From NCBI RefSeq assembly GCF_000190595.1, contig NC_015167.1, positions 3,270,501-3,334,500 on the forward strand: DNA of 64,000 nucleotides. Reading direction: 5' to 3'. Source of the stretch: Cellulophaga lytica DSM 7489 (lineage in GTDB: Bacteria; Bacteroidota; Bacteroidia; Flavobacteriales; Flavobacteriaceae). Every line of letters begins with the position of its first letter. The stretch's first letter is position 1. Below the pieces are notes generated by a model. It searched no databases and had not been told where the DNA came from. It was given only the letters and a program-made list of their open reading frames with translations. Position numbers and translations under genes: made by a program. This document shows, in pieces, positions 7,209-62,695 of this stretch.

Positions 7209-7284
7209 TTTTATTGTTTTGCAGAATCACAATAAGAAAAAGACAAATAATAAGGAGTTAAATTAACATTTTTTCCAAAGTATT

Positions 7285-7357
7285 GGCTTATCCTTTTTTA
7301 GCACCTTGCTCGTTATTGCAGGTTGCTATCTCTTTTTTTTGAGATTCTTGATAATTA
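7285..7357 (-). promoter_or_regulatory. SAM-I-like riboswitch (reduced form)
   Basis: Read on the minus strand, the leader has TTATCAAGAA, a small hairpin (ATCTC with GAGAT round an A-rich loop), TAGCAACC, a stem (CAACCTGC with GCAAGGTG), GTGCTAAAA and finally GGATAAG, whose GATAA pairs with the opening TTATC. The TTATCAAGA, AGCAACC, AAGGTGCTA and GATAAG blocks, in that order, are those of Bacteroidota SAM-I riboswitches. The G-rich kink-turn arm (P2) is replaced by a plain hairpin and P4 is missing, so this is a reduced or variant aptamer. It lies 77 bases before the transporter's start codon. Confidence 0.55.
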
Positions 7358-7412
7358 AGTGCGCAAAACTAAAGCATAACAACGAGATAAAATCATAATT
7401 TTCTGTTATTTT

Positions 7413-8305: not shown

Positions 8306-8875
8306 ATGAAAATTAAAATAGCTCAATTTATATCTGTATTAGGACACCCGTTGTTGCTATTTCCTTTTTTAATTTTAATTTTTAATCTTAATGATAAGGA
8401 AACAGTCTTTTCCCATACCTTATCTCTTATTTATGGCATTTTTTTTCTAGTTTTAATTGCTTGGGTCTATATAGGAAAAAGAAGAGGAAAATATACAGAC
8501 TTAGATGTATCTAACAAAAGGGAGCGTAGATCGTTGTATATATTTGCTTTACCACTAATGGTTTTGGTTCTTTTCTTTTTATTTTATACAAAACAGCCTG
8601 TTTACATTTGCACTAGCTTTTCTATAGCTACGCTTATGCTTTTAGCTTCTTTCGGAATTAATTTTCTTATAAAAATATCTATGCACGTGGCTATAAACAT
8701 ATATTTAGCACTTGCTATTATATTTGTAAATAGGCGTTTAGGTGTTGTTCTTATATTATTTACATTTTTAGTAATGTGGTCTAGACTTGTATTAAAAAGG
8801 CACACACCAAAAGAGGTTGTTACAGGCTTAATTATAGGCTCATTGTTTGGGCTAACCTTAGTACTTATTTCTTAG
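8306..8875 (+). CDS. PAP2-type phosphatase-like membrane protein
   Basis: A 189-residue protein with about six hydrophobic segments. The end has a recognisable but altered PAP2 (type 2 phosphatidic acid phosphatase) motif: SRLVLKRHTPKEVVTG, where the family has SRxxxxxHxxxDxxxG, so the usual Asp is Glu. A His in the fourth segment (SMHVAINIY) fits the central motif. The K-x6-RP motif is not clear. It may dephosphorylate an undecaprenyl or lipid phosphate in the membrane, but the substituted acid leaves activity open. It is transcribed alone, divergent from the DUF1853 gene. Confidence 0.7.
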   Translation: MKIKIAQFISVLGHPLLLFPFLILIFNLNDKETVFSHTLSLIYGIFFLVLIAWVYIGKRRGKYTDLDVSNKRERRSLYIFALPLMVLVLFFLFYTKQPVYICTSFSIATLMLLASFGINFLIKISMHVAINIYLALAIIFVNRRLGVVLILFTFLVMWSRLVLKRHTPKEVVTGLIIGSLFGLTLVLIS

Positions 8876-9709: not shown

Positions 9710-10016
9710 ATTTTTAGGACTAAATTACATAGACAAAGTAAGTGTATGTAAAAGTTTTTTCTTACAAAAAATATTTTATAAGATAGATTTGTAATTTTAT
9801 TTTCAGCTGTATTTACCAACAATATAGTTGTTTTACCGATAAAATGCATAAGTTTTAATAGGTTATTTATATGCCTGTTGAGTATTTGTCTAGTGTATAT
9901 TTATCATATTTTTCTTGTTAAATAGTAGTTTCGTATTAAATAATTTTAGTCTGTTTCCCCAGGATATGAATTTTTTAGAAGAAAATAATTTAATCAATAT
10001 TTAAACTACATTTTTT
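9710..10016 (+). other. Non-coding stretch before the agarase gene
   Basis: About 300 AT-rich bases with no ORF or RNA gene that I can support. It must hold the agarase promoter and control sites, but I see neither a clean TAnnTTTG element nor a clear dyad. The regulation of the agarase is therefore unresolved from the sequence. Confidence 0.4.
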
Positions 10017-11444
10017 ATGAAAAAGATTAGCCTACTATCAATTATTATGTTTCTACAATTGCTATTTGTTAATGCTCAGTACGATTGGGATAACATACCT
10101 ATACCCGCAAATGCCGGATCAGGAAAAACGTGGCAATTACAAGTACAAGCCAGTGACGATTTTAACTACCAATTTTTACCTTCTACCAATGTTACCGATT
10201 TTGGCCCAGGAAATAATAAAAAATGGTATAATAAATACCATAATTTACCAAGTGGTGCTCCCAATAATTTTGAAGGTCCAGGACCAACAAAATGGATGCA
10301 AAACCACGTAGCTGTTTCTGGAGGTCATTTAAATATTTGGGCATCTAGAATCCCTGGAGCAACCAAGTCTTTTGTTGGCTCTAGCGGAAATTTAATTTCT
10401 AGACCAGAAACAAGAGCTGGTTGTATAACTAACAAAACGCGTGTAAAATTCCCTGTATTTGTAGAAGCTAGTATAAAAGTAATGAACTCTTCATTAGCTT
10501 CGGATATTTGGCTACTTAGCCCAGATGACACACAGGAAATAGACATTATAGAATGTTATGGAGGGCCAGGAGACGACAATAGAAATGGTTTCTTTGCAAA
10601 TAAAATACACCTTAGTCATCATGTATTTATTAGGCCTCCAAACTTTAAAGATTACCAACCTGCAGATTTTAATAGTTGGTGGCAAAAAAATGGAGTTAAC
10701 CAATGGGGAGGAAGAGTTGTAAGAATTGGTGTTAATTGGGTTTCAGCTACAAGATTAGAGTATTATGTAGACGGGCAAATGGTACGTGTTTTAGATGATA
10801 CTGCAGTACAAACCAGATTAGCAGATGGTACTTGGCAATATACATACCCAGCTGGTGTAACAAGTACTGGTGTTAACGGACAGTTAGTTAGAGAAAATGG
10901 ATATCAAAAAATGAATATTGCTACTAGTTTAAATGATGCAAAAAACAAGTCTAATATTAGTGTTATAGATCCATTTAATTATTTAAATAACCAGAGAAGA
11001 TTTACAAAAGAAATGGATATTATTATTAATGTAGAAGACCAAAGTTGGCAAGCAGAGGCTAACAGATCTGCTACAGATAAAGAGTTAGAGAATTTTGAAA
11101 ATAATAATTTACTTGTAAATTGGATTAGAGTATACAAACCTGTTAATGCTAGTAACTTTGTTAATACAGAGATTTCTAATAATTCTGCTAGAACTTTAAC
11201 TTTTAATGAAGAAGAAAAGCAAGAGCTAGCAGTATTTCCTATTCCTGCTAAAGACGTTGTAAATATTAGTAGTAAAGACTATGTACAGGCTAAGGTTTAT
11301 AATTTGCAAGGACTAATTGTTTTAAGAAAAGATGTTGCAGATGGTACACTAAATGTTTCTTCTTTAGAAAAAGGTATTTATGTACTAGAATTAGCCAAAG
11401 CAAATGGTGAGTCTACAAAGCAAAAAATTGTAATATCTAAATAA
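10017..11444 (+). CDS. Secreted GH16 beta-agarase with T9SS sorting domain
   Basis: A 475-residue glycoside hydrolase. A signal peptide (1-20, ending NAQ) precedes a GH16 catalytic domain (about 25-380). The catalytic signature E174-I-D176-I-I-E179, followed by CYGG, is the beta-bulge ExDxxE motif typical of beta-agarases; E174 is the nucleophile and E179 the acid/base by family analogy. The surrounding segments (FFANKIHLSHHVFIR, WGGRVVRIGVNW, LVNWIRVYKPV) also match agarases. Residues about 403-475 are a type A T9SS C-terminal sorting domain (FPIPAKD, VYNLQG, GIYVLEL, KIVISK). The protein is therefore exported by T9SS and cleaves agar outside the cell or on its surface. Porphyranase or carrageenase activity is less likely given the motif context. 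Confidence 0.9.
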   Translation: MKKISLLSIIMFLQLLFVNAQYDWDNIPIPANAGSGKTWQLQVQASDDFNYQFLPSTNVTDFGPGNNKKWYNKYHNLPSGAPNNFEGPGPTKWMQNHVAVSGGHLNIWASRIPGATKSFVGSSGNLISRPETRAGCITNKTRVKFPVFVEASIKVMNSSLASDIWLLSPDDTQEIDIIECYGGPGDDNRNGFFANKIHLSHHVFIRPPNFKDYQPADFNSWWQKNGVNQWGGRVVRIGVNWVSATRLEYYVDGQMVRVLDDTAVQTRLADGTWQYTYPAGVTSTGVNGQLVRENGYQKMNIATSLNDAKNKSNISVIDPFNYLNNQRRFTKEMDIIINVEDQSWQAEANRSATDKELENFENNNLLVNWIRVYKPVNASNFVNTEISNNSARTLTFNEEEKQELAVFPIPAKDVVNISSKDYVQAKVYNLQGLIVLRKDVADGTLNVSSLEKGIYVLELAKANGESTKQKIVISK

Positions 11445-53116: not shown

Positions 53117-53722
53117 ATGAACCGTATTAAGTACGTATTAGAAGACAAGGGTATAAAGCAAACTTGGTTAGCAGAAAAGCTAGGTAAAAGTTACAATATG
53201 GTAAATTCTTATGTACAGAATAGGAGGCAACCCAGTTTAGAATTGTTGTATGAAATTGCCCATATTTTACAAGTAGAAGCCAGAGATTTGTTAGATGGCA
53301 ACCAAGCAGTTTTTAACACCAATAATACAGTTAAAACAGACACCGTTAGTATACCTTTAGTAGGCTCTGTAGCTTGCGGATTGCCAATTTTTGCAGAAGA
53401 ACATATTGAAGCTAAAATTGAAGTTTCTACCAAGCTAGTAAAAAAACCTTCAGATTATTTTTTGTTAAGAGCCACAGGAGACTCTATGAACAAAAAAGGA
53501 ATAAACAGTGGCGATTTACTACTTATTAAACGCCAACATACTGCAGAAACCGGAGATTTAGTACTTGCCTTGTTAGATAATGAAGCTACGGTTAAAGAGT
53601 TTATAAACAACGGTAGCAACCTTGTTTTAAAACCGCACTCTACAAACCCAAAACACCAACCAATTATTTTAACTACAGACTTTAAAGTACAAGGTGTTGT
53701 AGCAGATGTTATTAAGGTGTAG
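53117..53722 (+). CDS. LexA-like XRE/S24 self-cleaving regulator
   Basis: A 201-residue regulator. The N-terminal XRE-type HTH (about 1-60) has KGIKQTWLAEKLGKSYNMVNSYVQNRRQPSLELL. The C-terminal S24 peptidase domain (about 75-200) has the cleavage site Cys-Gly in VACGLP, the catalytic Ser in ATGDSMNKKG and the catalytic Lys in ATVKEF. Such proteins self-cleave on RecA filaments after DNA damage and release repression. It is divergent from the radical SAM/DNA-metabolism pair and lies beside the defence island, so it may regulate either. It is not a phage repressor by any nearby phage gene. Confidence 0.92.
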   Translation: MNRIKYVLEDKGIKQTWLAEKLGKSYNMVNSYVQNRRQPSLELLYEIAHILQVEARDLLDGNQAVFNTNNTVKTDTVSIPLVGSVACGLPIFAEEHIEAKIEVSTKLVKKPSDYFLLRATGDSMNKKGINSGDLLLIKRQHTAETGDLVLALLDNEATVKEFINNGSNLVLKPHSTNPKHQPIILTTDFKVQGVVADVIKV

Positions 53723-53980
53723 TTAAATACATAAGTTTTTTAGTATTTTCTTTTGTACAAAGCAGGAGGGAAGTAGCATTTTGTATTTAGGATAAAAGAT
53801 GTTACCCATAATTAATTTTATACCATTTATAAATAAATAGTACCCAAGTATACATATCTGTAATTACACTTAAAAAAATAGTTTTACATTGTAGGAGAAT
53901 TAAACAACCAAAAGTAAAGTAAACTACACTATGTGTGTTTATATGTAGTTTTGCCTAATGCGAAAAACGAAAACTACGAA

Positions 53981-55540
53981 ATGAAAATTATAGAAAAAAT
54001 CAAAATAAAGAATTTCGGACGTTTTAAAGAATTCACTCTTGGATTTGACAAATCTCTAAACCTTCTAATTGGAGACAATGAAGCTGGAAAAAGTACAATT
54101 CTTTCTGCAATTGATATCGTACTAAGTGGAAGTCGCAGTAAAGTAGAAAATTTTGGAATTGATCACCTTTTCAACACTGATGTAATTGATGACTTTCTAG
54201 CATCGGAAAAAAAATATGAAAACTTACCAATATTATACATTGAACTCTACCTAAATGACCAAGGAAACAAGGATTTGGATGGCAAGTATAACTCTGAGAA
54301 TATTCCATCTCACGGAATTTTGTTAATGTGTGAACCAAGAGAAGATTTAAGCAAGGAAATTAAAGAAATTTTAGAACAGGATGACGATAATTTTCCATTT
54401 GAATACTACTCAATAAACTTTAAAACATTTTCTGGAGAAAGCTATACTGGCTATCGAAGATTTATGCAACATTTATTGCTTGACAACACGCAAATAAATA
54501 ATGAATACGCAACAAAATCATATATTAAAACACTTTATCATAATAGTATAAAAGATGCTGAAAAGAACAAGCATCAAAATGAATATAGAAAACATAAAGA
54601 AAATTTTCGTACCACTGTACTAAATGAATTGAATGAGCGTATAACTGATTATTCATTCTCTGTCAGAACAAACTCTAAAGCAAACCTTGAATCTGATTTA
54701 ACAATCAAAGAAGGTAACATCGAAATAGAAAATAAAGGTAAAGGAAGACAATGCTTTATAAAAACTGACTTTGCATTGCAAAAAAATGAAAATGAACTAG
54801 ATATAATCCTTCTCGAAGAACCAGAAAATCATTTAAGTCATATAAATATGAAAAAGTTAATCCAAAGGATTAACGAATCAGAAAACAAACAACTGTTTGT
54901 TGCTACTCATAGTAATCTAATAAGTACTCGTTTAGATTTACGAAAAGCAGTAATGCTTAATAGTAATAGTTCGCAACCAATTCCATTAATTGCAATTCCA
55001 GAGGATACTGCTAAGTTCTTTATGAAAGCACCAGATAATAATATTTTAGAATATATTTTATCTAAAAATGTAATTCTAGTAGAAGGAGATGCCGAATTCA
55101 TTTTATTAGAAGCATTTTATAAAAAAGTTACAAATAAAAAACTTGAAGATTCAGAAATTCATATAATTTCTGTTGGAGGTACTAGTTTCAAAAGATACCT
55201 AGACGTAGCTAAGCTTCTGAATATTAAAACAGCCGTAATTCGTGATAATGATGGCAACTTTCAGTTAAACTGTGTTGATAGATATTCAGATTATACAGAA
55301 GATAACATAGAAGTATTTTATGATACTGATAACGCTATTTCAACCTTTGAAATTTCTTTTTTTAAGAATAACGAAGTTATTTGCAGCGAATTATTTTTTG
55401 CTGGTCGAAAAACACTAACAGTTCAAGAATATATGCTAAAAAACAAAGCTGATGTTGCCTTTGAGTTATTGGATAAAAAAGCTGACGTTTTAGTCGTTCC
55501 AGATTATATTAAAAGAGCAATTGAATGGATAAAAGCTTAA
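53981..55540 (+). CDS. OLD-family ATPase/TOPRIM nuclease (GajA-like)
   Basis: A 519-residue class 2 OLD protein. The ATPase domain has Walker A GDNEAGKST (31-39) and Walker B ILLEEPENHL (Glu279-Glu280), then the D-loop-like SHINM and the switch His in ATHSN. The C-terminal TOPRIM domain has VEGDAEF (Glu368) and the metal-binding RDND (Asp422 and Asp424). The start ATG at 53981 is chosen because MKIIEKIKIKNFG is the typical SMC-like N-terminus. The next gene, a UvrD-like helicase, overlaps by 16 bases. That pair is the Gabija defence layout, where GajA cuts DNA when nucleotides are depleted. Other OLD-helicase pairs exist, so Gabija is likely but not certain. Confidence 0.85.
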   Translation: MKIIEKIKIKNFGRFKEFTLGFDKSLNLLIGDNEAGKSTILSAIDIVLSGSRSKVENFGIDHLFNTDVIDDFLASEKKYENLPILYIELYLNDQGNKDLDGKYNSENIPSHGILLMCEPREDLSKEIKEILEQDDDNFPFEYYSINFKTFSGESYTGYRRFMQHLLLDNTQINNEYATKSYIKTLYHNSIKDAEKNKHQNEYRKHKENFRTTVLNELNERITDYSFSVRTNSKANLESDLTIKEGNIEIENKGKGRQCFIKTDFALQKNENELDIILLEEPENHLSHINMKKLIQRINESENKQLFVATHSNLISTRLDLRKAVMLNSNSSQPIPLIAIPEDTAKFFMKAPDNNILEYILSKNVILVEGDAEFILLEAFYKKVTNKKLEDSEIHIISVGGTSFKRYLDVAKLLNIKTAVIRDNDGNFQLNCVDRYSDYTEDNIEVFYDTDNAISTFEISFFKNNEVICSELFFAGRKTLTVQEYMLKNKADVAFELLDKKADVLVVPDYIKRAIEWIKA

Positions 55541-56556
55541 TATTAGCAGTTGCAGGTTCGGGAAAAACGACTTTAATCGTTGATAAATTAAATCTTGAAG
55601 AAAGGTTTTTATTGATTACTTACACAATTAATAATACACGAAACTTAAAAGAAGCGATTGTTACAAAGTTTGGCTATTTACCCGAAAACATCAATCTATT
55701 CTCTTATTATAATTTTCTTTATTCATTTTGCTTCAGACCCTTTTTAGGATATAAATTAAAAACCAAAGGAATTTTTTGGGACTTTACACCAGTTTTCACC
55801 AATAAACTTCCTTTAAGTAATATATCTAGGTATATGACCAAGGGAAAGCTATTATACCATAACAGAATAGCAAAACTACTTGAACAAGCAAATGTATTAG
55901 GCGATATAAATAAACGTCTATCGAAATATTATGACCACATATTAATCGATGAAATTCAGGACTTTGCTGGTCACGATTTTAACTTATTAAAAAATATATG
56001 TCAATCTGAAACAGAAATTATACTTGTAGGAGATTTTTATCAGCATACTTTTGATACAAGTAGAGATGGCAACACCAACGCTAATTTACATAGCGATTAT
56101 GAGAAGTATCAAAAAATATTTGAAAAGGCAAAAATTATTCCTGATACTGAATATTTAAATAAAAGCTACAGATGCACTAAGAGTGTTTGTCAATTCATTA
56201 CAGACCAAATTGGAATAGATATTCAATCACATAAAGAAATCGATAGTAATGTTATTTATCTAGATGACATAGAGGAAATCGAAACTTTATTTAATGATAA
56301 TAATATTATTAAATTATTTTATCGAGAAAATTATAAATACGATTGTTATTCAAGAAATTGGGGAGATTCTAAAGGAGAGAATCATTATAATGACGTATGT
56401 GTTGTTTTAAACAAAACAACTTTAACTCACTATAGGCAAGGGAAATTATCGGAATTAAAACCTGTATCTAAAAACAAATTATATGTTGCTTGTTCGAGAG
56501 CTAACAATAATTTATATCTGATTGCTGAAGAAAAAATCAAACATTATAAAAACTAA
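55525..56556 (+). CDS. UvrD-like SF1 helicase/NTPase (GajB-like, short)
   Basis: A 343-residue SF1 protein. Walker A is AVAGSGKTTL (8-17), the Walker B/DEAQ-type motif is IDEIQDF (DEIQ at 142-145), motif III is VGDFYQHTF, an NKSYRCTKS segment serves as motif IV/V and YVACSRANNNLYL is motif VI. It is clearly shorter than typical GajB (about 480-500 residues). It seems to lack most of the 2B insertion and has few residues in the second RecA domain. It may only sense DNA ends or NTPs and signal to the nuclease. It overlaps the nuclease gene by 16 bases, ensuring joint expression. The first long repeat starts right after its stop. Confidence 0.82.
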   Translation: MDKSLILAVAGSGKTTLIVDKLNLEERFLLITYTINNTRNLKEAIVTKFGYLPENINLFSYYNFLYSFCFRPFLGYKLKTKGIFWDFTPVFTNKLPLSNISRYMTKGKLLYHNRIAKLLEQANVLGDINKRLSKYYDHILIDEIQDFAGHDFNLLKNICQSETEIILVGDFYQHTFDTSRDGNTNANLHSDYEKYQKIFEKAKIIPDTEYLNKSYRCTKSVCQFITDQIGIDIQSHKEIDSNVIYLDDIEEIETLFNDNNIIKLFYRENYKYDCYSRNWGDSKGENHYNDVCVVLNKTTLTHYRQGKLSELKPVSKNKLYVACSRANNNLYLIAEEKIKHYKN

Positions 56557-56557
56557 A

Positions 56558-56710
56558 GCACTGGCTACAACACCATATATAATTAATGGCTGGTTTTAGC
56601 CTACATATGAATCCCTAAGCGTTAGGACTAGCGGACTTTCTATCTGTGATTTATTTGCTAAATTAGGTGCTTAAACCACTCAATAAACTATATACAAACA
56701 AGTTAGGTGC
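56558..56710 (+). repeat. Long folded repeat, copy R1 (attC-like)
   Basis: A 153-base dyad. The outer arms (ATATATAATTAATGGCTGG and CCACTCAATAAACTATATA) are inverted but imperfect. A conserved middle arm pair (GTTTTAGCCTA with TTAGGTGCTTAAAC) encloses a core with CCTAAGCGTTAGG and ACTTTCTATCTGTGATTT. It ends near GTTAGGT, which fits the integron core site GTTRRRY. It follows the helicase gene and precedes the sterol-desaturase-like gene. Confidence 0.75.
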
Positions 56711-56756
56711 AAGTTGAAAAAACATAACAAGACAATTAATCTAATATATTTAAACT

Positions 56757-57578
56757 ATGGATTTAATAAACAAATTATTGGGAATAGACCCAAATTATAT
56801 TGTGATTGGATTAATTGCCTTTTTCTTTTCATTGGAGCAAATAATGCAATCGCCATTTAGCTTCAAAAAAAGAATTAACCATCTGTTTCAAAATGTACTG
56901 TTCCAAATTATTCTTGTGTTTTTAAATATCTTTTTTGTAACATTTCAGGTGTTTTCAATTGAATGGTTAAATGGAAACAATATTGGACTTCTATATCTGA
57001 TTGAATTACCTGTTTGGGTTAAACTTTGTGTTTCTGTTGCCTTATATGACATAACAGCGTATTGGATTCATAGAGGAACCCACAAAATTCCTTTACTATG
57101 GAGATTTCATAGAGTACATCACAGTGATACAACAATGGATTCTTCAACGGTTTTTCGTTTTCATCCTATTGAATTAATTCTTGTATTTGGAGTTGGAAAT
57201 ATAATTACTGCTGCGCTATTTGGTACAGATGTCTTTTCTATGGCTCTGTATTATTTTATCCTTTATGTTTTTTTCTTTTTCGAACACGCAAATCTAAATT
57301 ACCCAAAATGGCTGAATTCGTCTTTAGGATTATTATTTGTAATGCCAGACCATCATAGAGTTCACCATCAACAAGAACAGATATACACAGATTCAAACTA
57401 TGCCGATATATTTATAATTTGGGACAGGTTATTTGGGACTTTTAAGATGATGCCAGTAGAAGATATGAAATATGGATTGGCAGAATTTGATACGGACGAA
57501 AAACAATCATTCCTCTATTTAATTAAAAGTCCTTTTATAAATATTAAAAGAATTAAAACTGATAAGAAATCTGAATAA
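56757..57578 (+). CDS. Fatty acid hydroxylase / sterol desaturase family protein
   Basis: A 273-residue membrane protein with about five hydrophobic segments. The His boxes of the family are present: HRGTH, HRVHHSD and DHHRVHH, which hold a di-iron site. The family hydroxylates or desaturates lipids. The gene stands alone between repeats R1 and R2, with its start 47 bases after R1, so it looks like a cassette. Its link to the defence genes is unclear. In cassette arrays, cargo genes are commonly unrelated to each other. Confidence 0.88.
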   Translation: MDLINKLLGIDPNYIVIGLIAFFFSLEQIMQSPFSFKKRINHLFQNVLFQIILVFLNIFFVTFQVFSIEWLNGNNIGLLYLIELPVWVKLCVSVALYDITAYWIHRGTHKIPLLWRFHRVHHSDTTMDSSTVFRFHPIELILVFGVGNIITAALFGTDVFSMALYYFILYVFFFFEHANLNYPKWLNSSLGLLFVMPDHHRVHHQQEQIYTDSNYADIFIIWDRLFGTFKMMPVEDMKYGLAEFDTDEKQSFLYLIKSPFINIKRIKTDKKSE

Positions 57579-57589
57579 AAAACCAGTAT

Positions 57590-57730
57590 CTAACAATGTC
57601 TATAAGTAATTGCTAGTTCTAGCCTACTTACAAATCCCGAAGCGTTAGGACTATCGTACTTTCTATTCGGTTTTTATTTGATAACTTTAGTACTTAAACC
57701 ACGTAACAAACTATATACATCAACGTTAGC
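57590..57730 (+). repeat. Long folded repeat, copy R2 (attC-like)
   Basis: A 141-base dyad. It opens with CTAACAATGTCTATAAGTAAT and its 3' end read backwards begins CTAACGTTGATGTATATAG, so the outermost arms match. The core (GCCTACTTACAAATCCCGAAG, then CGTTAGGACTA) matches R1 and R3 with a few changes. It ends with AACGTTAG, 15 bases before the next start codon. Confidence 0.75.
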
Positions 57731-57744
57731 AGTAATTAAAGAAA

Positions 57745-58296
57745 ATGGGAGATTGGCATCAAGACATAGTGATTAAAGATGTTTCTAATGAAGAATTGCA
57801 AAATGTAGCGACTCAGATTATTGAATACCTGGTAGCTGAAGAAATTATAAGTACAAAAATGTCCGATAATGTTTTAGGGACTGATAAAGGATATTGTCCT
57901 GGCAGAAACTGGCAAAAAGTTGTTAAATACCCTGATGAAAAACAGTTTTTAGAACTATGGACAAATGGACTTGATGTAATTAAAAAAAGAAATATTTTTT
58001 ATGCAGATGGTGGTGAATTTAACGCAATTAATTGTCCTATTTGCGGAGTAAATAATCTAGAATGTAATTGGGGAGAATTATTTGGGGAATGGCTTGAAGA
58101 TCCAAAATCAGCAGATTTGGAATGTATAAAATGTAAACAATCTAATTCTATTAGTGAATATATATTTGAACCGACTTGGGCATTAAGCAATCTAGGGTTT
58201 GTTTTCTGGAATTGGCCCATTTTCAAAGACTCATTTATTGCTGAATTGAAGGAATTCACAGGAAAGAGAATTATAAAAGTGGAAGGAAAACTATGA
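57745..58296 (+). CDS. Unknown protein with zinc-ribbon motifs
   Basis: A 183-residue soluble protein. Two Cys pairs, CPIC (about residue 96) and CIKC (about 131), could form a zinc ribbon. The ends are Trp-rich (LGFVFWNWPIF). No catalytic motif is visible, and I do not recognise the family. Its start lies 15 bases after R2. No repeat lies between it and the Mrr gene (76 bases), so the two may form one two-gene cassette or a deletion has removed a repeat. A toxin or defence role is possible but unsupported. Confidence 0.65.
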   Translation: MGDWHQDIVIKDVSNEELQNVATQIIEYLVAEEIISTKMSDNVLGTDKGYCPGRNWQKVVKYPDEKQFLELWTNGLDVIKKRNIFYADGGEFNAINCPICGVNNLECNWGELFGEWLEDPKSADLECIKCKQSNSISEYIFEPTWALSNLGFVFWNWPIFKDSFIAELKEFTGKRIIKVEGKL

Positions 58297-58372
58297 ATAA
58301 AATTGCCTAACTTACACGCTACTGCCATACCCAAGTCCGTTTGAAAAATATTAAAAAACACCAGAATAATAA

Positions 58373-59269
58373 ATGGAATTACCTAAATATCACGAAACTT
58401 TTATACCAATTTTGGAAACATTGAATTCTATTGAATCAACTAGTAGTCGAGAATTAGCAAGAAAAGTTAGAGATAATTACTATTCAGAACTTCCAAAAGA
58501 ACTTTTGGACAAAAAGACAAGTTCAGGAGCAAATGTTTTAATTGACAGAATACTTTGGGGAAAATCTTATCTGAAAATGGGTAAATTTGTATCCTACCCT
58601 AGAAGAGGAATGGTTAAAATCACGGACAAAGGAAAACAAACATTAACAAATGGTCAACTTCTTTTGTCAGATTTAAAAAATGATCCTGATTTTGTTCAAC
58701 ATCGCACGTCTGTTAAAAGTAAAAAAGACGATAAAACAGAATTAGAAACTGTTGATGTTGATAGTTCATCACCACAAGATTTAATAGATACTGGCTTTGA
58801 AACAATTGAAACAGAGGTTAAAACTGAACTTTTAGATAAACTTAAAGAACTTGACCCATATTTCTTTGAAAAAGTAATTTTGATATTACTTAAAAAAATG
58901 GGTTATGGAGATTTTATTGAAACTTCAAAATCAGGAGATGGTGGAATAGACGGAATAATAAATGAGGACAAACTTGGACTTGAAAAAATTTATACTCAAG
59001 CAAAAAGATATAATGAAAACAAAGTAAGAGAAAAGGATATAAGAAACTTTATTGGAGCTATGAGTGGAGACACTTCTAAAGGAGTTTTTATAACTACATC
59101 AACATTTGACGCTTCTGCAATAAAAAAAGCAAGAGAGGCACATCATTCAATTATTCTGGTTGACGGGCCAAAATTGGTAGACTTAATGCATCAGTATAAT
59201 GTTGGAATACAAGTAAAAACAACATATGAAGTTAAAGAAATTGATTATGATTTCTTTGAAGGAGAATAG
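58373..59269 (+). CDS. Mrr-family restriction endonuclease
   Basis: A 298-residue type IV restriction-like enzyme. A winged-helix Mrr N-terminal domain (about 1-110) is followed by a linker and an Mrr catalytic domain (about 155-285). The PD-(D/E)XK core is visible: FEKVILILLKKMGYGDF, SGDGGIDGII with the first acidic residue, and YTQAKRY with the Gln-x-Lys of the Mrr type. The DNA-binding and nuclease domains are intact. It probably cleaves methylated foreign DNA. It supports the view that this island carries defence cargo. It is followed by repeat R3. Confidence 0.9.
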   Translation: MELPKYHETFIPILETLNSIESTSSRELARKVRDNYYSELPKELLDKKTSSGANVLIDRILWGKSYLKMGKFVSYPRRGMVKITDKGKQTLTNGQLLLSDLKNDPDFVQHRTSVKSKKDDKTELETVDVDSSSPQDLIDTGFETIETEVKTELLDKLKELDPYFFEKVILILLKKMGYGDFIETSKSGDGGIDGIINEDKLGLEKIYTQAKRYNENKVREKDIRNFIGAMSGDTSKGVFITTSTFDASAIKKAREAHHSIILVDGPKLVDLMHQYNVGIQVKTTYEVKEIDYDFFEGE

Positions 59270-59280
59270 AGCAATCAAGC

Positions 59281-59425
59281 TCAACAACGTACAAGATTAA
59301 TTACTAGTTTTAGCCTAAATATGAATCCCTAAGCGTTAGGACTATCATACTTTCTATCTGTGATTTATTTGCTAAATTAGGAGCTTAAACACGCAGCTAA
59401 TCTTAAACAAAATTGCTGTGTGCAA
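59281..59425 (+). repeat. Long folded repeat, copy R3 (attC-like)
   Basis: A 145-base dyad. The inner core (ATGAATCCCTAAGCGTTAGG, then ACTA) is identical to R1 over 24 bases, and a second block ending in TTTGCTAAATTAGG is identical to R1 over 33 bases. The outer arms differ from R1 (AAGATTAATTACTAGTTTTAG against AAGATTAGCTGCGTGTTTAAG on the reverse strand). It follows the Mrr gene and ends 15 bases before the VOC start codon. Confidence 0.75.
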
Positions 59426-59439
59426 CCTAATAATACACT

Positions 59440-59832
59440 ATGGACTTTAAACGAACAGGAATAATATTGTACACTATTGAGTATAAAAAATGTGTAGACT
59501 TTTATGAAAACATACTTGAATTAAACAAAATGTTTGAAACTGAAAATTTAACGTGTTTTGAATTTGGTAACTCTTATTTGATGGTAGAGCTAGATGATGA
59601 ATATAACGGAACACAAACTGAATCTGAACGAATTAAGACTTGTTTACGAATGAACGTTTCAAACGTTAAAATTCTTGCAAACAAACTGATTGAAAAAAAT
59701 ATTGAAGTAGACTACCAAGAACACACTTGGGGAACAATTGCGAAATTTTTTGACCCAGACGGAAATTTATGTGCCTTTAAGGACAATGAAACGTTTGAAA
59801 AACAAATTGCAGACGGAATTAAAGTGAACTAA
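59440..59832 (+). CDS. VOC-family (glyoxalase/bleomycin resistance-like) protein
   Basis: A 130-residue two-module betaalphabetabetabeta protein. It has IILYTIEYKKCVDFYENILELNK, typical of the fold's first module, and HTWGTIAKFFDPDGNLCAFKD, the usual second-module end with the DPDGN turn. Possible metal ligands include Glu and His at the usual positions, but the set is incomplete. It may confer resistance to a small toxic molecule, or act as a dioxygenase-like enzyme. It sits alone between repeats R3 and R4, like a resistance cassette. Confidence 0.85.
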   Translation: MDFKRTGIILYTIEYKKCVDFYENILELNKMFETENLTCFEFGNSYLMVELDDEYNGTQTESERIKTCLRMNVSNVKILANKLIEKNIEVDYQEHTWGTIAKFFDPDGNLCAFKDNETFEKQIADGIKVN

Positions 59833-59843
59833 GCAGAAGAAGA

Positions 59844-59918
59844 GTTAACTAACACTTGTACAAGACTATTTTTATTTGCTAAATTAGGTGTGTAAACACG
59901 TTGTAAAACACTAACAAA
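59844..59918 (+). repeat. Shortened folded repeat, copy R4 (attC-like)
   Basis: Compared with R3, the centre is deleted: TAACACTTGTACAAGACTA runs directly into TTTATTTGCTAAATTAGGTG and then TGTAAACACGTTGT. The outer arms still pair (CACTTGTACAAGAC with GTGTTTTACAACGTG on the reverse strand). At about 75 bases it is the shortest copy. It ends 6 bases before the next ATG. Confidence 0.7.
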
Positions 59919-59923
59919 AACAT

Positions 59924-60514
59924 ATGAAAAAGTACTATTATATAATATCAATTATTTTATTGCAATCATTGTTTGCTTGTAAAAATAACTGTACACCAGA
60001 TATTACAGGAGTAAATTTAACCAATTCCATTTTTCTTACTACAATTGATTCCTTAAAAAGTGTTGATGCTAACAGTTATAGAATTGAACTTCGTTTAGAT
60101 ATAGATCAAATAAATAAAAGACAAGATAAAGATTGCATCCAAGGAGAAAAAGGACTAAAAAGTAATATTAAAGAGTTAAGTATTGTTTCAAATGCTAATA
60201 TTTTTAATACTACAGCTGGAGAAAAAATTAATCTTGACAATTTTAGAATTTATGACTATGTCGGATTTATTTCAGATGATTACGGTGAGGATATTGATGC
60301 TAATTTTAAAAGATATAGATTAAATGAATGGATTGATATGATCAATAATGACTATAGAGATACATACGACTCAACCTTTAAGTTTTATAATAATTTTTAT
60401 ATCGAATTCTCAGACAAAAACCAGTCAGCAAACAATGTTAAATTCAAATTAATAGTAACACTAATGAATGGTAATGTATTTGAAGCAGAAACAAAGCCTA
60501 TAAATATTACTTAA
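59924..60514 (+). CDS. Lipoprotein in the repeat-separated array
   Basis: A 196-residue lipoprotein (lipobox LFAC, followed by a CKNNC-like Cys pair). The mature part is mixed alpha/beta, with NSYRIELRLDIDQINKRQDKDC and KFKLIVTLMNGNVFEAETKP near the end. I do not recognise the family. Its start codon is only 6 bases after R4. It is the last plus-strand gene of the array. The sequence just after its stop (GCTAACGC) resembles the 5' end of a repeat, but no 3' half follows, as the convergent Pmp3 gene begins there. Confidence 0.7.
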   Translation: MKKYYYIISIILLQSLFACKNNCTPDITGVNLTNSIFLTTIDSLKSVDANSYRIELRLDIDQINKRQDKDCIQGEKGLKSNIKELSIVSNANIFNTTAGEKINLDNFRIYDYVGFISDDYGEDIDANFKRYRLNEWIDMINNDYRDTYDSTFKFYNNFYIEFSDKNQSANNVKFKLIVTLMNGNVFEAETKPINIT

Positions 60515-60686: not shown

Positions 60687-60738
60687 ATGTAGTTATTTTA
60701 ATTAATAATTCTATTTTTCTAAGTTTTTTTTATTCTAG

Positions 60739-61272
60739 TTATTCTTCTTCTTTCTCATCTACCAACATCCTATGATCACTTTTCTTTAACCCAACAATGG
60801 CAATAATATTTGTAACGGTACCATATAACATTAGTATGGTAATAACCATCATTCCGCTAATAATAGAGGAGGAGAAAAGTGTTCCCCAATAAATATATTT
60901 GTACCACCAAACGGCTACGTTATCTGCTTCTGTAATTGGAATATTAAAAAACTGAAAGAGAATTAATGTACTTATAAAAAGTATGGTGTCAAACTTAGCA
61001 ATACTTAATACCTGTGTATAGTGTTTCTTTTTAAGTTTTGTTTCTGTACCTGTACTTATCCCCAGTAAAGTTAATAGTAAGGCTAAAATTGTGGCAGATG
61101 CCAATATTATGGTATTACAAAGCATATTAAGACCTTGTATAGATGAACTTAACAGTTTTTTAGCCTCATAGCCCGATATGTTACCTAAAATAAAGACACC
61201 AAATGCTATAAAAATTGTTGTTACAGCACCACCTATAAAGGCGCGTTTATGATTTTTAAAAAAGTTGCTCAT
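60739..61272 (-). CDS. Four-segment membrane protein
   Basis: A 177-residue protein with four hydrophobic segments (about 11-31, 45-70, 90-110 and 125-160), a charged cytoplasmic C-terminus and no signal peptide. The segment ILASATILALLLTLLGISTGTETKLKKKHY is the most distinctive. I do not recognise the family. It is the last gene of an operon with DUF1989 and YqcI/YcgG genes, 2 bases after DUF1989, so it may anchor or export the product of that pathway. Confidence 0.75.
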   Translation of the reverse strand: MSNFFKNHKRAFIGGAVTTIFIAFGVFILGNISGYEAKKLLSSSIQGLNMLCNTIILASATILALLLTLLGISTGTETKLKKKHYTQVLSIAKFDTILFISTLILFQFFNIPITEADNVAVWWYKYIYWGTLFSSSIISGMMVITILMLYGTVTNIIAIVGLKKSDHRMLVDEKEEE

Positions 61273-61274
61273 TT

Positions 61275-61850
61275 TTATATGATCTTATATCCTATGGGTT
61301 TAAAACTTCCACCATTACTATCTTTTGCAGAGCAAGCTGTTAAAGCTACAATTAAATCCATTTGGGCTTCAAAACAAACATAATCACCAGATTGTGATGT
61401 GGGTGGCTCAACTTTTATTTTCCCAGATTTATTAAAAACAACATTCATAAATATATTAAATGCAGTAGGTATATCATCTTTTTGAATACCGTAGGGCTCT
61501 AAATTTTTGTAAAGGTTTTCAAAACAACTTGGGTGGTATTCTTCAATACCGTAAAAATGTTTAAACGTTTTTCTATCACACGGTGCAAGTAAAAAATCGT
61601 TTCTACCGTTTGTATCTTCTATAATTTTTACCATTTTATTACTTCTGTTACTCCAGAGGTAATTGCCTTTTGTTAGTAAAATAGACTCTTCAAAATCTAA
61701 TGTTTTACCTGAAGATACTTTCTCTTTTATATCGGTTTTATTCAAAAATAAAATGTCTGATACTTGCTTACCTTCAATATCAATAACCTTAAGTATTTGA
61801 CCCTTTTTAAGTTCTAAAGCTGCTCCGGATTTTGGTGGTATAGTAATCAT
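61275..61850 (-). CDS. DUF1989 protein (urea carboxylase-associated type)
   Basis: A 191-residue soluble beta-rich protein. It has family segments IPPKSGAALELKKGQILKVIDIEGKQVSDILFL, a DFLLAPCDRKTF with Cys and YVCFEAQMDLIVALTACS near the end. DUF1989 members are linked to urea, amide or guanidine metabolism, but their reaction is unknown. It overlaps the YqcI/YcgG gene by 4 bases (ATGA), so the two are translated together. In other genomes the same pair occurs, suggesting a shared pathway that acts on a guanidino compound. Confidence 0.88.
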   Translation of the reverse strand: MITIPPKSGAALELKKGQILKVIDIEGKQVSDILFLNKTDIKEKVSSGKTLDFEESILLTKGNYLWSNRSNKMVKIIEDTNGRNDFLLAPCDRKTFKHFYGIEEYHPSCFENLYKNLEPYGIQKDDIPTAFNIFMNVVFNKSGKIKVEPPTSQSGDYVCFEAQMDLIVALTACSAKDSNGGSFKPIGYKII

Positions 61851-62521
61851 TTTTTATGAAATTGGTATGGACATTTCCATTTGTTATTTACTGCTCTTCC
61901 GCTATATTGTCTTGCTTCGCTACCAGCTCCAAAATCTTCTAGCATTGGATTTATAGAACCTTGATATTCCTTATCTCTACGCCTAATTAAGTCTCTTACG
62001 CGAGTATAACGATTGGTTTTACGAAGCTTATCAAACTGATTATGTAAGTTAAACACAATCATAGGAAATGGTGATGATCTTGCTTTTCTGGAAGCATTAG
62101 GATGCATACCAACTATGTAGAACGACTTGCCTAAGATGCTCATACTAAATTTTGGCGAGGATACATCAGAATCTGTACTATTATCCCATTCACAATCATC
62201 CTTACAGTGTAGTTGATACAGTAATTTCCAGAGTGCGTTTTCAAAAGCTAATTCAGTTTTAAATTCGTCATCTTTAAATACGGCAATAAAGGTTTGAAAC
62301 TTTTTAGATTCATCATTAATTTCATTTAAGTAACTATTTAAATCGTTTAATAGAGTAGGGACACATTGTTTAGAAATTTTACTATAATTATGAATAGATA
62401 TAGTATCATTTGCAACAACACTTTGTGCCATAACACAAGGATGATCGTCAAGAATAAATTCTTTTACCATATCATCAACAGCAGTTGTATTCTCTATTTT
62501 GTCCATTGTGTGTAATTCCAT
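61847..62521 (-). CDS. YqcI/YcgG-family protein, GntA-like heme N-hydroxylase
   Basis: A 224-residue soluble protein of the YqcI/YcgG family. It has DDHPCVMAQSVV (a possible heme thiolate Cys region), FYIVGMHPNASRKARSSPFPMIVFNLHNQFDKLR (the family signature) and RDLIRRRDKEYQGSINPML. Characterised members such as GntA are heme-dependent enzymes that N-hydroxylate guanidine groups (for example enduracididine in guanitoxin synthesis, or arginine). It probably hydroxylates arginine or a related amine here. It is the first gene of the three-gene operon. The stop is TAA in the overlap with DUF1989. Confidence 0.88.
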   Translation of the reverse strand: MELHTMDKIENTTAVDDMVKEFILDDHPCVMAQSVVANDTISIHNYSKISKQCVPTLLNDLNSYLNEINDESKKFQTFIAVFKDDEFKTELAFENALWKLLYQLHCKDDCEWDNSTDSDVSSPKFSMSILGKSFYIVGMHPNASRKARSSPFPMIVFNLHNQFDKLRKTNRYTRVRDLIRRRDKEYQGSINPMLEDFGAGSEARQYSGRAVNNKWKCPYQFHKK

Positions 62522-62695
62522 TTTTCAATGCTTTAATGCGTTTGTATCATTTTTATGCTAAATTAAATGGAGTGTAGTTTAAGCTTTATCTCAATCCGTC
62601 ATATTATTAACCTTATCAAGTATATAAGAATTTATGCATTATTTCTTCACTTGTATTTTATAAAAAGGCTAGTAGTTTTAGTATTTATATGATAC

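Follow-up and report, generated by a model that had tools for sequence, protein, structure and literature searches.

Do the long repeats that lie between single genes in a flavobacterial chromosome mark a cassette array of the integron kind, and if so, which enzyme would move the cassettes? The question was raised by an earlier note, made from the sequence alone, on a 64,000-nt stretch of Cellulophaga lytica DSM 7489 (contig NC_015167.1, positions 3,270,501 to 3,334,500; hereafter the window, whose own coordinates are used unless chromosome positions are indicated), in which four repeats (R1 to R4) were described as an attC-like cassette array without a visible integrase. We concluded that R1 to R3 and the remnant R4 are very probably recombination sites of gene cassettes that work like the attC sites of integrons, the systems by which resistance genes spread in other bacteria, and are moved by a tyrosine recombinase without I2, the additional domain of the integron integrase IntI. 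The core idea of the note was upheld by the exchange of cassettes among congeners and by a duplicated cassette bounded on both sides by G|TT (the bar marks the boundary), and the tyrosine recombinase that it had proposed to look for elsewhere in the genome was found as a candidate integrase that lacks I2 and is accompanied by an attI-like site and an array.

Repeat family, matched arms and cassette boundaries

R1 to R3 are real repeats of ~150 nt, with R2 and R3 being 75% and 72% identical to R1, respectively. In the genome, a single contig of 3.77 Mb, a BLAST search with one repeat gave 26 matches at E ≤ 0.002, more than expected by chance, and a site profile (a model of our own rather than that of IntegronFinder, built from copies in the C. 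lytica genome, R1 to R3 among them) gave 37 matches at E < 1e-4 and 43 at E < 0.01 in the regions fetched. The copies cluster near 1.04-1.09, 1.66-1.71, 1.91-1.92, 1.98-1.99, 2.48-2.49, 2.66, and 3.33 Mb of the chromosome, the last being the window, and within every cluster all copies lie on one strand. Their consensus reads N7-AAC ... GTATAT ... TTGC ... apical hairpin ... GCAA ... ATATAC ... G|TT-N7. The description of the repeats in the earlier note was thus correct in part. The repeats do lie between same-strand genes whose start codons follow closely behind each of them, the 33-base block common to R1 and R3 is readable in the sequence, and R1 and R2 do end in GTTAG, the GTTAGGT of R1 fitting GTTRRRY. 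The claim that the outer arms always pair within a copy failed, as the variable R-arm letters of R1, R2, and R3 pair within the same copy at 2, 2, and 3 of 8 positions, which is the chance level, and pairing follows the cassette; nor does R4 keep paired outer arms, since its 5′ arm gives no alignment and ~53 nt of its 3′ half are recognizable.

If a site is a hybrid in which everything after the G of GTT belongs to the next cassette, its 5′ arm should be complementary to the start of its own cassette, and the arms would pair only in the circular cassette. In the C. lytica genome, 22 cassette pairs averaged 4.86 of 8 matching positions against a shuffled mean of 2.72 (maximum of 20,000 shuffles, 4.09), and the arms of the same site did not differ from shuffles (n = 27; 2.67 vs 2.61, p = 0.44). 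The comparison was extended to 80 integrase regions of the family, 60 of which were the first rows of the list of relatives after the own genome and 20 of which (L132-L151) were picked on long contigs, some of them because sites had already been seen on the same contig. Here, 168 cassettes averaged 6.09 of 8 (shuffled, 2.64 ± 0.11), 142 of them pairing at 6-7 of 8 positions, far beyond every shuffle, and a perfect stem of 9-10 bp joined the cassette ends in 140. The arrays consist of cassettes in the same orientation, mostly with one gene each, separated by attC-like sites; the longest open reading frame (ORF) ran in the direction of the site in 152 of the 168 cassettes and opposite to it in 3, and 13 had no ORF of 50 amino acids (aa). 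As a positive control, 20 true IntI regions of the phylum were examined in the same way, and matched-end chains of 3-10 cassettes stood in the classic position in 7 of these, with none longer than 2 on the other side. The matched arms so indicate that the cassettes would act as circles cut at G|TT. The letters behind GTT are mostly A/G, then T/G/C, then A/C/G, and then free; 143 of 229 sites have T or C behind GTTR, so that the GTTRRRY form of R′ is not kept, and R1 alone fits it among the sites of the window.

The boundaries of single cassettes can be read from duplicates in the home array, which is the array beside the candidate integrase. A 748-bp cassette occurs there twice, 100% identical at chromosome positions 1684453-1683706 and 1676060-1675313 with different neighbours, and the identity begins at CGTT and ends at CGTT, placing both boundaries exactly at G|TT. 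In a second duplicate (96.8% identical), the end lies 3 nt past the G in both copies, yet the identity extends through the preceding site, and in a third (96.9%), which holds the cassette next to attI, the ends are blurred by ~20 nt. The dozens of dispersed copies with inverted arms in one genome would suit repetitive extragenic palindromic (REP) elements, miniature inverted-repeat transposable elements (MITEs), or other non-autonomous transposable elements that lie between genes by chance. This explanation is very improbable, as the copies stand in same-strand arrays with mostly one gene between them, the arm letters match across the gene and not across the repeat, gene and repeat have been duplicated as a unit cut at G|TT, and each recombinase type has its sites always on one side and one strand; the repeats were found neither dispersed independently of gene order nor mobile without a gene.

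A recombinase lacking I2 and its attI-like sites

The candidate integrase, a tyrosine recombinase of 297 aa, lies directly upstream of a same-strand site cluster spanning 1684.6-1660.7 kb of the chromosome, 1.64 Mb from the window. Family models placed it as Xer/IntI-like (XerA/XerC/XerD families) under every curated cut-off listed. The match to the IntI model TIGR02249 falls into two pieces that skip model positions 177-238 and scores 206.8 bits against a cut-off of 265, and the best NCBIfam match, NF040815, which NCBI names “site-specific tyrosine recombinase/integron integrase”, scores 207 bits against a cut-off of 220 that two other members of the group exceed. The best matches among PDB sequences were the XerC-like 4a8e and then IntI4 (2a3v). 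The protein has an SPLD-like C-terminal end, as in IntI, that is missing from the two other Xer-like recombinases of the genome (312 and 302 aa). A search of the genome with the IntI model gave nothing above the cut-off, a search for relatives of the array-linked integrase at E ≤ 1e-40 returned only that integrase itself, and a weaker tyrosine recombinase match lies at chromosome position 3657624 (58.9 bits). Among the best 80 of 534 named loci of related integrases, the closest relative is that of Cellulophaga sp. 20_2_10 (93%). Recombinases 49-50% identical occur on Acinetobacter plasmids, one record naming the protein TnpF.

The catalytic residues R, K, HxxR, H, and Y are present in all 52 array-linked integrases compared (one region was dropped because its protein contained X, and one with a single oddly placed site was counted as having no site). 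The spacing from K to HxxR is 58-59 in the C. lytica enzyme, in 52 of 52 array-linked integrases, and in 80 of 80 named relatives, vs 100 in 19 of 19 IntI proteins; by this spacing, by alignment, and by the TIGR02249 score, the I2 domain is absent. Many of the array-linked enzymes and their relatives carry ~100 extra N-terminal residues, a region for which Pfam scans of five proteins gave no confident match. IntI formed one clade (support 100) in a quick tree, and the array-linked enzymes formed several; the rooting depends on two long Xer-like rows, and long-branch joins were flagged by the program, so the tree is compatible both with an ancestor without I2 and with its secondary loss.

Sites were present in 54 of the 80 integrase regions (37 of the 60 taken from the list and 17 of the 20 picked). 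Among 237 sites around integrases, 209 lay downstream on the same strand, 26 upstream on the opposite strand, 2 upstream on the same strand, and 0 downstream on the opposite strand. In the tree, the divergent layout belonged to two clades of integrases (6 rows), and it occurred once more (L171) with sites ~15 kb away. Since the array is on the divergent side in L132, L135, L136, L148, L149, and L157, the layout has switched within the group. In the 80 named loci, which served as a further sample, 25 of 25 model matches were downstream on the same strand, and the assembly ended no farther than 3 kb from the integrase in 51 of 80 on the downstream side vs 7 of 80 on the upstream side, an excess that would be expected if repeats caused such breaks. 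Matched-end chains were tabulated in these loci only where at least ~1.5 kb of downstream stretch was available, with the upstream side as the only valid control because the pattern is its own reverse complement, which makes a comparison with the reverse strand meaningless. In Rufibacter (L281 and L291), perfectly matched cassette ends stand behind I2-less integrases at quite different sites of ~59 nt, with a GC-rich hairpin recognized by eye.

An attI-like site lies next to the integrase gene and appears to receive the cassettes. Behind the integrase, four congeneric integrons are identical over ~28 nt up to ACTA|GTT (common AAACGCAATAAACTGCGTTTACTAACTA|), four further copies in relatives are close, and all eight continue differently after GTT. 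For the 38 of the 80 regions in which the first site lay within 2.6 kb on the integrase strand, a GTT-N7 matching the arm of the first site at 6-7 of 7 letters was found between integrase and site in 38 of 38, and in 27 of these it stood 26-128 bp behind the integrase stop; when arms were swapped between regions (1394 tries), 6 of 7 letters were reached in 6.8% over the whole stretch and in 5.0% near the stop. One genome (G159) has three integrase-array loci (L113, L114, and L158), two of which have identical integrases and attI regions with different first cassettes. Genomic attG sites have reportedly been described as well.

These sites bear on the possibility that homologous recombination between the repeats varies the arrays and that the adjacent recombinase is incidental or a chromosome-dimer resolvase. 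The repeats are indeed alike over ~150 nt, the recombinase scores like the XerA/XerC/XerD families, and the ends of many duplicates lie away from detected sites. We nevertheless give this explanation only a slight chance, because the clearest duplicate loses identity exactly at G|TT on both sides, homologous recombination would not maintain cassette-matched arms of 9-10 bp, and attI is little like the sites beyond GTT, yet cassettes begin exactly there; as for the dimer resolvase, the genome has the two other Xer-like recombinases.

With the best 13 site matches per genome in the family set and the best 11 in the phylum set, the R1 site model matched 202 of 249 family genomes and 36 of 296 phylum genomes. 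True IntI was found in 84 of the 296 phylum genomes; none of the 86 phylum-set genomes with an IntI match was from the own family, the 249 family genomes not having been searched for IntI as a set. A strong R1-type site was present in 1 of 20 IntI regions (L229, genome G311), where it lies ~1 kb upstream on the other strand (8746-8875, with the integrase at 9906-10847), a possible exchange between integron types. A true IntI acting in trans, from a plasmid or a lost integron, might move the cassettes while the adjacent recombinase does something else. The frequency of IntI in other families of the phylum and the G311 region would fit, as would the recombination by IntI1 of 1 of 2 attC sites of a Polaribacter phage tested, as stated in passages of PMC9892861; one site of the present type used as a DNA query gave no match in phage records. 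Such an enzyme is nonetheless unlikely to be the agent, as the C. lytica genome has no match above the IntI cut-off, sites are carried by most genomes of a family not represented among the IntI matches of the phylum set, and in 27 of 38 regions the attI-like sites stand 26-128 bp behind the I2-less gene. The same DNA query matched five plasmid records (CP116298.1, CP116296.1, NZ_CP092416.1, NZ_AP025294.1, and NZ_AP025293.1), so site-like DNA is also held by plasmids of Tenacibaculum, Flagellimonas, and Persicobacter.

The array of the window and its congeners

The gene order in the window is GajA-GajB, R1, fatty-acid hydroxylase, R2, zinc-ribbon ORF with Mrr, R3, VOC, R4, and lipoprotein (Table 1). 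The left flank is 88-92% identical in the congeners G536, G537, and G539 up to 53943-53950, and the window and these three congeners all open at GTTTAT(A/G)TGTA|GTT and then continue with different letters; the crossover would lie at 53948|53949, and the junction resembles TGCGTTTACTAACTA|GTT behind the integrase. Between the flanks (congener ORFs of 70 aa or more), G537 has a 663-aa gene, a site, 268 aa, a site, the same VOC cassette, and 170 aa; G539 has 192 aa, a site, and 210 aa; and G536 has 724 aa, a site, 171 aa, a site, and 171 aa. The earlier note had suggested looking for gain or loss of single genes at the repeats, and this is what the congeners present, with mostly different genes between repeats inside flanks that are 88-95% identical. 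By eye, the first-cassette start GTTCTAAG in G539 matches the arm of the first site there. A search of 17 congeners found no ortholog of the fatty-acid hydroxylase, 37% being the best identity.

Table 1. Features of the cassette array in the window and of the candidate integrase (the latter in chromosome coordinates)
Feature	Position	Strand	Evidence or remark
attI-like left junction, GTTTATATGTA then G|TT	53937-53950	+	Flank identity with G536, G537, G539 ends at 53943-53950
GajA-like gene, Gabija-type defence pair, first array content	53981-55540	+	PADLOC GajA, E 3.9e-112 (ORF 53933-55540)
GajB-like helicase gene	55525-56556	+	PADLOC GajB, E 3.1e-51
R1, attC-like site	56562-56711	+	G|TT at 56702|56703; profile E 9e-39
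Fatty-acid hydroxylase cassette gene	56757-57578	+	PF04116
R2, attC-like site	57587-57734	+	G|TT at 57725|57726; profile E 3e-37
183-aa ORF, zinc-ribbon-like Cys pairs by eye	57745-58296	+	Without Pfam or PADLOC match
Mrr-type restriction endonuclease (type IV), one cassette with the 183-aa ORF	58373-59269	+	PF04471, E 6.5e-34; PADLOC mREase_IV, E 2.4e-55
R3, attC-like site, 3′ end decayed	59280-59424	+	GCT replaces GTT at 59415; profile E 8e-34
VOC/glyoxalase-like cassette gene	59440-59832	+	Also in G537, 92.7% over 587 bp, beside different genes
R4, 3′ remnant of attC-like site, ~53 nt	59869-59921	+	Profile E 2.8e-6, model positions 88-140 only
Lipoprotein-like ORF, last array gene	59924-60514	+	Without Pfam match
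Right junction	60505-60511		Conserved ~195-bp flank, 94-95% identical, resumes in G536, G537, G539
Candidate integrase, tyrosine recombinase, 297 aa	1686.1-1685.2 kb	-	TIGR02249 best match 1685213-1686019

The listed ORF of the GajA-like gene opens at GTG 53933, and the in-frame ATG at 53981 was chosen as its start. Defence genes ride in the array, namely the Gabija-like pair (53933-56556) and the Mrr-type gene (58373-59269). Directly to the left of the array junction lies a gene for a Cro/C1 helix-turn-helix protein with an S24 peptidase (LexA-like; 53117-53722), a possible link to stress. A further congener, G543, matches the left side only, to ~53727, short stretches aside. To the right of the array, 60709-62550 is absent from the matches of G536, G537, and G539, and 62551-63995 matches again in G537 and G539, which marks a second indel; the gene at 61847-62521 in this flank had no match in nine congeners. 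When the flank genes were searched in ten genomes, nine of them of other genera, 1 and 3 of these gave matches, an insufficient number for judging synteny.

Several observations weigh against the reading of R1 to R4 as attC-like sites served by an I2-less recombinase, the evidence for which is comparative throughout. Matching of the arms is poor in the window itself (R1 to R2, 4 of 8; R2 to R3, 2 of 8), so this array may be inactive and may be old, and the start of the first cassette, compared by eye, mismatches the arm of the first site in both the window and G536. No site was found in 26 of the 80 integrase regions, in part through contig ends, and across the 80 regions pairs of arms from the same site (n = 227) matched slightly above shuffles (2.87 vs 2.63, p ~ 0.004). 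Among within-genome duplicates of at least 250 bp in all regions, both copies had an end lying no more than 30 nt from a detected G|TT in only 11 of 34, and the sharing of cassettes between genomes amounted to one pair (76%) among 190 cassettes. Folding energies of R1 to R4 as single-stranded DNA, on both strands, did not beat shuffles (z of -0.94 to +1.60), and RNAalifold predicted zero pairs on 27 copies. In the structure named by eye, 6 pairs had a two-sided change, a number reached by 63 of 500 shuffles. Other measures favour that structure, in which 85% of cells are paired vs 27-49% when it is slid, and in which two-sided changes occur in 24 cells vs 9.5 ± 3.5 in shuffles and 3-15 when slid; the L-arm pairs have 12 two-sided cells vs 4.9 in shuffles, although 141 of 500 shuffles reached as many L-arm pairs changed in this way. 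Support for the fold from covariation is therefore partial.

A conserved core, a partly supported stem, and start codons closely behind would also be expected if the repeats were transcription terminators or structured regulatory RNAs in front of genes. As an account of the repeats this is hardly credible, given that there was no Rfam match at the repeats even up to E 5, that folding is without excess, and that cassette-matched arms and the exchange of cassettes would be left unexplained; a secondary role of the repeats in expression is conceivable, whereas expression as their main function is contradicted. Within the window, Rfam gave a single match at gathering score, a SAM-I/IV riboswitch at 7259-7359 on the minus strand.

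On the preferred reading, that of cassette sites of the attC kind, a cassette would consist of one or two genes plus one site, beginning with TT-N7 and ending in a site whose 5′ arm, N7′-AAC, complements that start. A tyrosine recombinase would cut between G and TT and move circles into and out of arrays and attI, with the folded single strand as its presumed substrate. In C. lytica, the likely catalyst is the 297-aa protein, directly downstream of which lie an attI-like site and an array; this protein would act in trans on the window array. The latter would be a partly decayed cassette array that lacks an integrase nearby and is anchored at the attI-like junction.

Comparison with known systems

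Passages of PMC7790495 describe I2 as necessary for cassette capture, as conferring single-strand recombination, and as unique to IntI, and state that intermediates in the origin of integrons are lacking. One survey chose integrases by their I2 domain, as described in part of PMC2426708, and a survey so designed would miss the system reported here. In a subgroup of integron-like recombinases, the I2 insertion is called “not fully conserved” in a passage of PMC8138268; this subgroup and the name of NF040815 are the nearest hints to I2-less integron integrases found. Among open-access titles and abstract openings, a scope that leaves subscription papers and preprints outside, no description of I2-less integrases with cassette arrays in Flavobacteriaceae was found.

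We consider it likely that the Bacteroidota, and the Flavobacteriaceae above all, carry a second, widespread kind of integron that would recombine folded sites by integrases without the I2 helix, through some other choice of strand (in many members perhaps by the extra ~100-aa N-terminus), and that IntI would have branched from within an older I2-less group or be its sister, this group being the intermediate that has been called missing. Should these enzymes prove active, natural proteins would offer a direct test of how integron recombination arose and of what I2 contributes, and a large and little-noticed pool of cassettes, including defence genes, would open to searching.

Like IntI integrons, the system has a tyrosine recombinase, an attI beside its gene, a same-strand array, attC-like AAC/GTT sites, G|TT boundaries, and arms matched within the cassette. 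Unlike them, it has integrases without I2 in all 52 array-linked cases measured, a cassette-specific stem of 9-10 bp, an R′ that is not GTTRRRY, and, in the C. lytica genome, sites of ~130-150 nt with a conserved centre. Because I2 is lacking, the word integron holds for the apparent way of working but not for membership of the family in the strict sense; the system is integron-like yet free of IntI, a new variant and possibly a missing intermediate. According to parts of PMC3607928, the integrase of Treponema integrons is transcribed toward attI and in the direction of the cassettes, as is the case here for 209 of 237 sites; the Treponema integrases are named IntI in that source and are set apart here by name only. 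The window array resembles clusters of attC sites lacking integron-integrases (CALINs, at least two attC sites without a nearby integrase) in having three full sites in 2.9 kb that are recombinase-free between them, and it differs from them in starting at an attI-like junction and in having a candidate integrase elsewhere in the genome. With XerA, XerC, and XerD the recombinase shares its best PDB match, the XerC-like 4a8e, and NF040815, whereas the array-linked enzymes are tied to attI and cassettes, have the SPLD-like C-terminus, and in many cases carry the ~100 extra N-terminal residues.

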